Part shown: in pieces, positions 54,632-57,504 of the stretch
Numbering within the stretch: position 1 is the first letter of the stretch
How the letters are laid out: each line of letters begins with the position of its first letter
Translations under genes and position numbers: made by a program
From: Trichocoleus sp.
GTDB lineage: Bacteria > Cyanobacteriota > Cyanobacteriia > Elainellales > Elainellaceae
Length of the DNA: 64,000 nucleotides
NCBI GenBank assembly: GCA_036702865.1
Contig: DATNQD010000087.1
Location: 124,001 to 188,000 of the forward strand
Direction: 5' to 3'
The notes under the pieces: model-generated
What the model was told of the DNA's origin: nothing
Seen by the model: the letters and a program-made list of their open reading frames with translations, nothing else
Database searches by the model: none

Positions 54632-54848
54632 AGTCTGTGCTGGCAAGATTATTCGATAATTCTAGGGGTTTTACTATCCTAGATCTAGGCTTTTCGTGGC
54701 TGATCACAGCGTTCAGAATCAGCAGTGCAGCGGCGCTAGATTTTGCATTCCTTGTTTTGGAACGAGTCAAACCAGAATGACCCCTTCCAAACGAATCGAT
54801 CGGCTGAAGGTTTTCCTCACCCGTTGCCCTGCCCTCTTGCTGAATCTT

Positions 54849-56195
54849 ATGGACTTTGACTCAGTAATCACGAACCAAGGCAAGATCTTAGCTTATTCTT
54901 ACAGCGACCTTCTATTTGAGTCTGTGCCCGACGCATCAGTTTGGGGTCGGGAGGTGGATCATTTGTATCAGGATCTAGGGGATTCGAGTCAAAGCCCCAG
55001 TCAGCGACAGCAATTGCAGCAGTTGATTCGCGCTTGTCAAACCGGAGTAGTGTCCTACGTGCTGGTCAGGCGGCTTGAGGAGCTGGGTGACACGATGCAA
55101 GATGTCAGCGATCGACTCTCACAGCTAGAACAGCTTGGCGTTCAGCTTATTGCCACCGAAGAATCAGTCGGATCAGAGGGTCAACCCCTCAAGCGATCGG
55201 ACTTATTCCGGTTACTGCAAACCATCCAAAAAGCTCAGCAGAGCCGGAAGATGAAGCGAGGTCATGCCCGCAATCGGGTCAAGGTCTTGCCACCACCCGG
55301 AAAAGCGCCCTACGGCTATCGACGCGGCAAAGAGCGCTATACGGTCGATCGCACCACAGCACCGATTGTGAAAGAATTTTTCGACCACTTCATCCTGTAT
55401 GGTTCATTACGGGGCAGCGTTCGCCATATTCAAAAGAAATACAGCAAGAAAATCTCAGTTTCTACAGGCAGACGATGGCTAACTAGTCCCGTGTATCGGG
55501 GTGATCTGCTCTACCAAAACGGTGAAGTGATCCGGGATACCCATACCCCTATCTTGCCGAGAGAAGAAGCTGCCCAAGTCGATCGCCTTTTGCGCCGAAA
55601 CCGCCGGATGCCCCCCCGCACTGCCAGTGCCCCTCGATCGCTTTCTGGGTTAGCCGTTTGTGCGAATTGTGAATCGCCATTAAGGATCAGCCGCGTCACG
55701 ACTCCGCGCAGTAAGCAGGAATATCTTTATCTCCGTCCGACTGCCTGTCCCCAACAGCCAAAATGCCGAGCGATTTCCTACGAACAGGTGCTGGAACAAA
55801 CAATTGCCCATGTCTGCCAGAACTTGCCTCAAACGGTCGATCGGGCTGCACTGCCTGATATCGATGCCATTCAACAAGGGATTTCCGCTCAAGTTGCTGC
55901 TAAACAAGCGGTTCTAGAACAGTTACCTGACTTAGTGAGCCAGGGCGTCTTAGATACAGAAACGGCTGAACTGCGAGCTTACAAACTGCGGACAGAAATG
56001 GCATCCTTGCAGGCAAATCTGGCTCAACTCCCTCCTGTGAACCTCAAGACGATCGCTCAGGTTGTCTCCATTCCGCAATTCTGGCTAGATTTATCAGAAG
56101 CCGAACGCCGTTTCTATTTTCGAGAATTTATTCGCCAAATTCGGATTGTCCGAGGTGAGCAAGCATGGCACATTGAACTAATTTTTATCTTCTAG
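54849..56195 (+). CDS. XisF-like large serine recombinase family protein, probably non-catalytic
   Basis: The 448-residue protein has the three-part layout of large serine recombinases: resolvase-like domain (about 12-140), recombinase domain ([13 protein letters not shown] to about 270), and zinc ribbon (CANCESPL ... CPQQPKC). But alignment by eye to gamma-delta resolvase puts Y18 at Arg8, D20 at the nucleophile Ser10, E78 at Arg68 and D81 at Arg71; only the Arg45 equivalent (R53) remains. It is therefore likely a DNA-binding protein rather than an enzyme. The ATG at 54849 fits the family start; GTG at 54696 would extend it. Its end overlaps the convergent methyltransferase by 18 bases. Confidence 0.85.
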
Positions 56196-57098
56196 GCTCT
56201 GAGTAAAAATCCGTTTCATAGCAATCTCACAATAGTCTCGATTAATGTCAATGCCAATAAAGCGACGCTGCTGCCGCAGTGCTACCAGTCCTACGGTTCC
56301 AGACCCCAGAAAAGGATCAAGAATCACGGTATTTTCTGGAGCACCAGCCAGGATGCAGGGTTCAATTAGCTGTTCTGGAAAAACTGCGAAATGGGCATCT
56401 CTAAACTTCGATAAAGGGACTTCCCATACGGTTCTTTTATTACGACCTTTTGGATGAAATGCCTGATCCCAGCGACCCCGATGCAGGTTTGAATTCCCCG
56501 AATTTTTGCCCTGTTCTGGCGTTCCTCCTTTCTTGCCCAGGTGATTGCGACCGCCGCGCATCCGACTTTGCTCAGAGAACGTAATATGCGGCTCCCGAAT
56601 TGCGTCTAAGTTGTAGTAGTACCTGGGACATTTTGCCAACAGAAAGAGATATTCGTGATCCGTTGTTGGGCGATTTTGCACCGCAGATGGCATTGCATTT
56701 GGCTTATGCCAAATAATGTCCGATCGCAGAATCCAACCCTGTTCCTTCAGCGCAAGTGCCAGTCGCCAGGGCAGCCCTGCTAGATTTCCGTTGATATATT
56801 TGTCGCCCAGGTTGAGCCAAATTGTCCCATCCTCTCTCAAAACCCGCTTGACTTCAGCAAAGATTTTGACCAGGCGATCAAGGTAGGCTTCTGGCGTTGC
56901 TTCTGTGCCCAGTTGATCAACTGCACCATAATTGCGATGACCATAGTACGGAGGGCTAGTCACTACAGTTTGCACCAAGCCATCCGGCAACTGCCTGAGT
57001 GACTCAAGAGCTTCCCCACAAACAATAAAGTTTGCTTGCTCAATCTCAACGCACCTTAAATTTTGAGCATCAACTATCAAGTGGCATCTACAAATCAA
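56178..57098 (-). CDS. Orphan DNA methyltransferase, beta class (N4-cytosine/N6-adenine type)
   Basis: The 306-residue protein transfers methyl groups to DNA amino groups. The catalytic TSPPY is at residues 47-51 and the AdoMet motif [10 protein letters not shown] near 270, the order of beta-class enzymes; TSPPY favours N4-cytosine. The target recognition region lies between (about 165-225, basic and Gly-rich). No restriction gene is adjacent, so it is an orphan. The start is TTG with no clear ribosome binding site; the true start may be a few residues later. A terminator hairpin lies about 23 bases upstream of that start. Confidence 0.88.
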
Positions 57099-57120
57099 AT
57101 TGTGTAGAAATTTTACTAAA

Positions 57121-57153
57121 TAAAAAACCGACAGTCCTAAAAGAATCTGTCGG
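57121..57153 (-). terminator. Rho-independent terminator upstream of the methyltransferase gene
   Basis: On the minus strand a perfect seven-pair stem CCGACAG/CTGTCGG with a 12-base loop is followed by six T and an A/T-rich tail. It points toward the methyltransferase gene and ends 22 bases before its start. It either ends a small upstream RNA or works as an attenuator. Confidence 0.7.
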
Positions 57154-57236
57154 CAAGTCGTGTGTTCCCTGTTGATGACTCGGCTAGAGTTGAGTCTCCT
57201 TTAGTATGCGTTCGTGGAGGTGGAAGGATGGCGATC
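57121..57236 (-). ncRNA. Candidate small RNA or attenuated leader
   Basis: The stretch between a CATAAT box (57243-57248, minus strand) and the terminator would make an RNA of about 115 bases; a second box, CATACT (57203-57208), would make one of about 79. It contains a GACTC/GAGTC hairpin (57177-57196), an unpaired CAGGGAACACACGA stretch and the terminator stem. There is no coding frame. -35 elements are weak, and it does not match Yfr1 motifs I remember. Confidence 0.3.
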
Positions 57237-57251
57237 AGGATCATTATGCGT

Positions 57252-57267
57252 TGTGATCTTAATCACA
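57252..57267. promoter_or_regulatory. Perfect CRP-type palindrome (candidate SyCRP1 site)
   Basis: TGTGATCTTAATCACA is an exact TGTGA-N6-TCACA palindrome, the consensus bound by cAMP receptor protein and its cyanobacterial relative SyCRP1. It lies between the methyltransferase gene and the divergent 38-residue gene. It overlaps the -35 position of the candidate small-RNA promoter and is about 120 bases before the microprotein start. Confidence 0.65.
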
Positions 57268-57331
57268 GCAGAAAAGCTTGAAATCAAGAGTCAAGATTTT
57301 TTACAAAGTTAGCAGGCATTATTTCGTTTTT

Positions 57332-57360
57332 TTGATTTTTGCAAAGGTGTCAAAATAAAA
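57332..57360 (+). promoter_or_regulatory. Candidate promoter of the 38-residue gene
   Basis: TTGATT (57332-57337) and ATAAAA (57355-57360) are separated by 17 bases, giving a predicted start near 57367 and a leader of about 20 bases. Confidence 0.4.
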
Positions 57361-57387
57361 CGAGACCACTAAGCAAAAGAGAACCTT

Positions 57388-57504
57388 ATGAAAGACATGA
57401 AAGACAAAAATTACTCCTGGAAAGGTAGCCCTAACGCCGGAGTGGTTCTGACTGTTTTAGCAGTGATTGCAGCAGCAGCCTTAGTTTTGGCAGGTTTTAG
57501 CTAA
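57388..57504 (+). CDS. 38-residue single-span membrane microprotein
   Basis: The frame encodes a charged N terminus (MKDMKDKNYSWKGSPNAG) followed by one clean membrane helix rich in Val, Ala and Leu (about residues 18-36), ending GFS. An AAGAGAA stretch nine bases upstream can serve as ribosome binding site. The size and shape match cyanobacterial one-helix proteins of photosynthetic or stress complexes, but there is no chlorophyll-binding motif and I cannot name it. A promoter and a CRP-type palindrome lie upstream. Confidence 0.65.
   Translation: MKDMKDKNYSWKGSPNAGVVLTVLAVIAAAALVLAGFS

Follow-up and report, generated by a model that had tools for sequence, protein, structure and literature searches.

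The window (the whole 64-kb stretch of DNA analysed) carried on its minus strand, within one intergenic interval, the following features in order: a CRP palindrome, a second CRP-like site, the hexamer CATACT, a 5' hairpin, a linker, and a terminator (Table 1). Positions 54696 to 57098 contained an XisF-like serine recombinase gene (plus strand) and a TSPPY-motif methyltransferase gene (minus strand) that overlapped tail to tail, and this pair was perhaps an inserted element. Positions 57388 to 57504 (plus strand) encoded a 38-aa membrane microprotein composed of KNYSWKGSPNAG and one hydrophobic helix. This microprotein matched no Pfam or NCBIfam family, was present in about 30 of 98 cyanobacterial genomes, and adjoined the small RNA gene in ten family loci; its identity with HliR1/SliP4 or Norf4 was rejected on differing N-termini, as judged from the primer sequences given in PMC5126843.

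Table 1. Predicted features of the small RNA gene and its promoter (positions in the window)
Feature	Position	Strand	Remarks
CRP site TGTGATTAAGATCACA (minus-strand reading)	57252..57267		Exact consensus, predicted centre at -63.5
Second, degenerate CRP-like site TGATCCTGATCGC	57231..57243	-	Centre at about -41.5; conserved columns -47 to -35
-10 box CATACT	57203..57208	-	Kept at -12 to -7 across 145 promoters
Small RNA gene	57122..57196	-	Predicted 75-nt transcript; covariance model and near-invariance among relatives
5' hairpin GACUC-N10-GAGUC	57177..57196	-	Paired in every one of the 57 distinct sequences
Unpaired linker AUCAACAGGGAACACACGACUUG, probable seed	57154..57176	-	Most conserved stretch of the RNA
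Intrinsic terminator CCGACAG...CUGUCGG-UUUUUU	57122..57153	-	Stem retained, with 8 of 11 pairs changed on both sides

The minus strand read GACTCAACTCTAGCCGAGTC (5' hairpin) from 57196 to 57177, then the linker ATCAACAGGGAACACACGACTTG with its near-invariant core AUCAACAGGGAACACAC, and then the terminator, which ended at 57122 and comprised the seven-pair stem CCGACAG/CTGTCGG (57128 to 57153) followed by TTTTTT (57122 to 57127). Both the seven-pair terminator and the second hairpin proposed in a first-pass annotation were found here, and the latter (GACTC-N10-GAGTC) coincided exactly with the 5' hairpin of the RNA. Judging from the comparisons below, the terminator, this hairpin, and the palindrome are parts of a single minus-strand small RNA gene. 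The -10 box and the abrupt onset of conservation place the probable RNA start at 57196, with a predicted transcript of 75 nt running from there to 57122; the small RNA of 79 to 115 bases that had been proposed stood as an RNA, but its size was slightly too long, conservation pointing to 75 nt. Taken as a single sequence, the interval had an ordinary fold energy (z = -0.41), and its terminator was unflagged by a consensus scanner whose terminator count was no higher than in shuffled sequences; these single-sequence features are by themselves no statistical standout, and it is conservation that raises them above chance. A search of its own genome found the interval in single copy. ATG was absent from the RNA of the window and the terminator-loop length varied freely between copies, both of which argued against an encoded peptide.

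In a DNA search of 60 relatives, most matched positions 57119 to 57209 at 78 to 97% identity; the matches that extended furthest stopped at or just past the palindrome. The core pattern search returned at least 117 named stretches, cyanobacterial with a single exception, which was located in an Acidimicrobiaceae MAG within a 495-aa ORF (L135) and was dismissed as a chance match. Of 388 cyanobacterial genomes of the class, 185 gave a match to a covariance model, and 85 of 160 genera were represented; the matched element was a short conserved RNA that ended in a stem plus U-run, as expected for a terminated intergenic small RNA. The carriers included Leptolyngbya, Nodosilinea, Thermosynechococcus, and Nostoc, and a divergent variant AACTGAACTCTAGCCGAGTCATTAATAGGGAACACAC was present in 18 genomes of Nostocaceae (family f32), one of them Nostoc sp. 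UHCC 0870, recognised by a plasmid stretch of identical sequence. Multiple genomes held two to five RNA copies, often spaced 163 to 170 bp. Tandem arrays of two to five copies, most with their own CRP promoters, were observed at L191, L208, L169, and L141, and genome G104 gave five covariance-model matches. Plasmid and phage collections contained no match to the RNA, and a mobile origin was rejected on this account.

A covariation search, which the first-pass annotation had suggested for Leptolyngbya-like genomes, was applied to an alignment of 57 distinct RNA sequences. Both stems were conserved, and the covariation score (0.197, of a kind that kinship inflates) was higher than in any of 500 shuffles or any slid control; an unguided consensus fold arrived at these two stems as well, its covariation term being weak (-0.59). 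The RNA gene, its structure, and its conserved promoter sites can be taken as established at the level of sequence comparison.

Across 145 distinct promoters, three blocks of columns were conserved: (i) -71 to -57 (TGTGAtcaaaATCAC), (ii) -47 to -35 (TGAtc..GATCgC), and (iii) -12 to -7 (CATACT, the -10 box). The spacers between these blocks were unconserved, and no -35 element was found among the same promoters. The TGTGA-N6-TCACA palindrome that had been reported as exact was the sole exact copy in the window, where one-mismatch sites occurred at chance level, and a site of this type stood at the fixed distance of -63.5 in most of the 143 to 145 promoters; at least 8 of 10 consensus positions were matched by this upstream site in 90% of 143 promoters versus 0.4% of shuffled ones. 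Sites centred near -63.5 and -41.5 are typical of CRP-activated promoters. For 5 of the 11 weakest upstream sites, a good CRP site was located instead at -41.5 to -43.5; these replacements were carried by three Thermosynechococcus MAGs, Aphanocapsa (L221), and Phormidesmis (L203). The Nostocaceae-type copies inspected retained the upstream CRP site at about the same distance, and tandem RNA copies brought their own CRP promoters. Three loci (L082, L089, and L097), which are second copies in genomes G027, G041, and G018, displayed an intact RNA with an unrecognisable CRP promoter; these three copies may be differently regulated or silent.

A CRP with a matching recognition helix was encoded in the same genome (G000:C86:163594-164292; L451): it contained the recognition helix ARETVTR, which we take to resemble that of E. 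coli CRP, and the presumed nucleotide pocket GEMA...RSTDV, while a separate NtcA-like protein in this genome contained RVTVTR. CRP (E < 1e-60) was found in 173 of the 185 genomes bearing the small RNA versus 108 of the 203 genomes lacking it (raw counts tallied by hand from two tables, with kinship ignored), and 9 of the 12 RNA-bearing genomes without CRP were assemblies less than 90% complete. The sequence of the site, its position, and the co-occurring regulator together suggest activation by CRP.

Positions 57122 to 57196 (minus strand) are therefore best read, with a probability of roughly 0.78, as the gene of a conserved small RNA that is transcribed independently, acts in trans, and is activated by CRP-cAMP, given conservation in 85 of 160 genera plus Nostocaceae, the retained hairpin and terminator, the fixed-position CRP site, and the co-occurrence of CRP. 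Conservation of the RNA together with its promoter lends strong support to the first-pass suggestion that cAMP/CRP controls a small RNA made here. In the proposed mechanism, cAMP-bound CRP (SyCRP1 type) would activate the predicted promoter from the -63.5 site, and the weaker -41.5 site would assist by standing in for a -35 element; the 75-nt RNA would terminate at its own intrinsic terminator, and the conserved linker AUCAACAGGGAACACAC would most likely pair with mRNAs.

Such trans pairing is suggested by the conservation pattern. Linker changes between lineages (AUCAACAGGG, AUUAAUAGGG, and GUCAAUGGGG) were mostly transitions that preserved pairing with a fixed G/U-bearing target, the exception being the Nodosilinea group, in which an A had become U, and these wobble-compatible transitions favour trans base-pairing. 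Seed complements were searched in 34 genomes as 14-mers (one mismatch allowed) and in 9 genomes as 10-mers, and no orthologous gene recurred in either search; pairing over fewer than 10 contiguous bases lies below the resolution of these searches. An excess of complement matches in the Thermosynechococcus-like genome G064 was discarded, as it came from one repeated sequence within an ORF that appears to be a mobile gene present in many copies. In two genomes, a conserved stretch complementary to the small RNA linker (TTGCTTTGTGTTCCCCGTTGCTCTC) was observed in the middle of L332 and L362; it was intergenic or in a short ORF and had no Rfam match. The CRP-controlled RNA might instead bind or titrate a protein, a reading to which the invariant block of about 40 nt (longer than a typical seed) and the lack of a recurring target gene would lend themselves; it is nevertheless unlikely, because the linker transitions are those expected for pairing with fixed targets and because the pairing may be too short for the searches to resolve.

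The methylase ORF began 23 nt beyond the T-run on the same strand as the terminator, which left scant room for another promoter, and the terminator had been regarded as aimed at the methyltransferase and as a possible means of attenuation. In this rival reading, the terminator would be an attenuator in the methylase leader, and CRP-cAMP would control DNA methylation by read-through. Synteny rejected this attenuation, which we consider quite improbable: (i) the methyltransferase and the XisF-like recombinase were missing from the equivalent place in the relatives examined, whereas the RNA, its terminator, and the CRP site were kept in genomes without an adjacent methylase, so the terminator was not conserved together with the methylase; and (ii) the genes downstream of the RNA varied across 141 loci, as they would not for the leader of one conserved gene, and were convergent at 94 of them, which assigned the terminator to the RNA and not to the downstream gene. 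The suggested cAMP-linked control of DNA methylation was left unsupported by the relatives that carry the RNA without the methyltransferase. On these comparisons, the methylase is a recent, lineage-specific neighbour beside the recombinase and lies outside the small RNA unit, which we continue to read as a CRP-activated gene of its own; because of the short distance past the terminator, read-through into the methylase could still occur in this one strain.

On the right of the small RNA gene, the order microprotein, DUF1499, glyoxalase-like, and aminotransferase was kept in four relatives of the same family; that the palindrome serves the divergent microprotein while the RNA is constitutive or otherwise controlled is very improbable, for although the site lies between both genes, about 120 to 136 bp upstream of the microprotein start codon, its distance to the RNA start was kept in genomes without an adjacent microprotein. 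The left flank was variable and often contained a uracil-DNA-glycosylase-like gene (a label assigned by eye to a fragment without a Pfam match) with its own promoter-like sequence. In Nostocaceae and neighbours (L268 and L270 to L281), a phycobilisome-protein gene usually faced the small RNA in convergent orientation, and a purL-like gene was located upstream at some of these loci.

No Rfam covariance model matched above its curated score, so membership in a known Rfam family was rejected, and none of seven core strings or their complements was printed in the open-access papers searched. CRP-controlled small RNAs are known as a kind from enterobacteria; what appears to be new is this particular family and its spread among cyanobacteria. 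Motility, pili, and light responses have been linked to cyanobacterial cAMP, and to our knowledge few direct outputs of its receptor have been described. A review of cyanobacterial small RNAs mentioned neither CRP nor cAMP (PMC6202907), and no named CRP-controlled cyanobacterial small RNA was found in the open literature (supplements and subscription papers being outside this scope). Table S3 of PMC4734099, as the main paper refers to it, holds 327 predictions, and a Nostoc homologue may well be among them. If the reading as a CRP-activated small RNA is true, the cAMP pathway gains an RNA output across roughly half of the cyanobacteria sampled. Thermosynechococcus and Nostoc are among the tractable hosts in which this can be tested, and a new RNA family becomes available for annotation.

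NsiR4 is a cyanobacterial small RNA whose activator, NtcA, belongs to the CRP family (PMC9196836), and it resembled the RNA described here in its wide conservation among cyanobacteria and in its class of regulator. The NtcA box GTA-N8-TAC was absent, the promoter in the window containing no GTA at all; moreover, in Nostoc the tail-to-tail neighbour of NsiR4 is alr3725 (PMC4734099), whereas the Nostocaceae copies of this RNA usually converged with the phycobilisome gene, and identity with NsiR4 was rejected on both promoter and context. NsiR1 of Nostoc occurs in tandem direct repeats (PMC4734099), which the present RNA can also form, but the description of NsiR1 set it apart from an RNA that extends beyond heterocyst formers and has a CRP-type promoter. 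Yfr1 and Yfr2 likewise are short, conserved cyanobacterial RNAs with an invariant unpaired motif, but the present RNA had no Rfam match and lacked the Yfr1 motif CACUCCUCACACC, and identity with Yfr1 was rejected on the missing motif. CyaR (activated) and Spot 42 (repressed) are enterobacterial small RNAs controlled by CRP-cAMP. Like them, the present RNA was short, intrinsically terminated, furnished with a CRP site in its promoter, and presumably trans-acting; unlike them, it had tandem CRP-like sites and a cyanobacterial host, and no sequence relation to them was seen (no Rfam match). By analogy, though at somewhat less than even odds, it might extend cAMP signalling in cyanobacteria, from Thermosynechococcus to Nostoc, to general post-transcriptional control, passing CRP-cAMP control on to many mRNAs in the manner of CyaR and Spot 42 but separately evolved.
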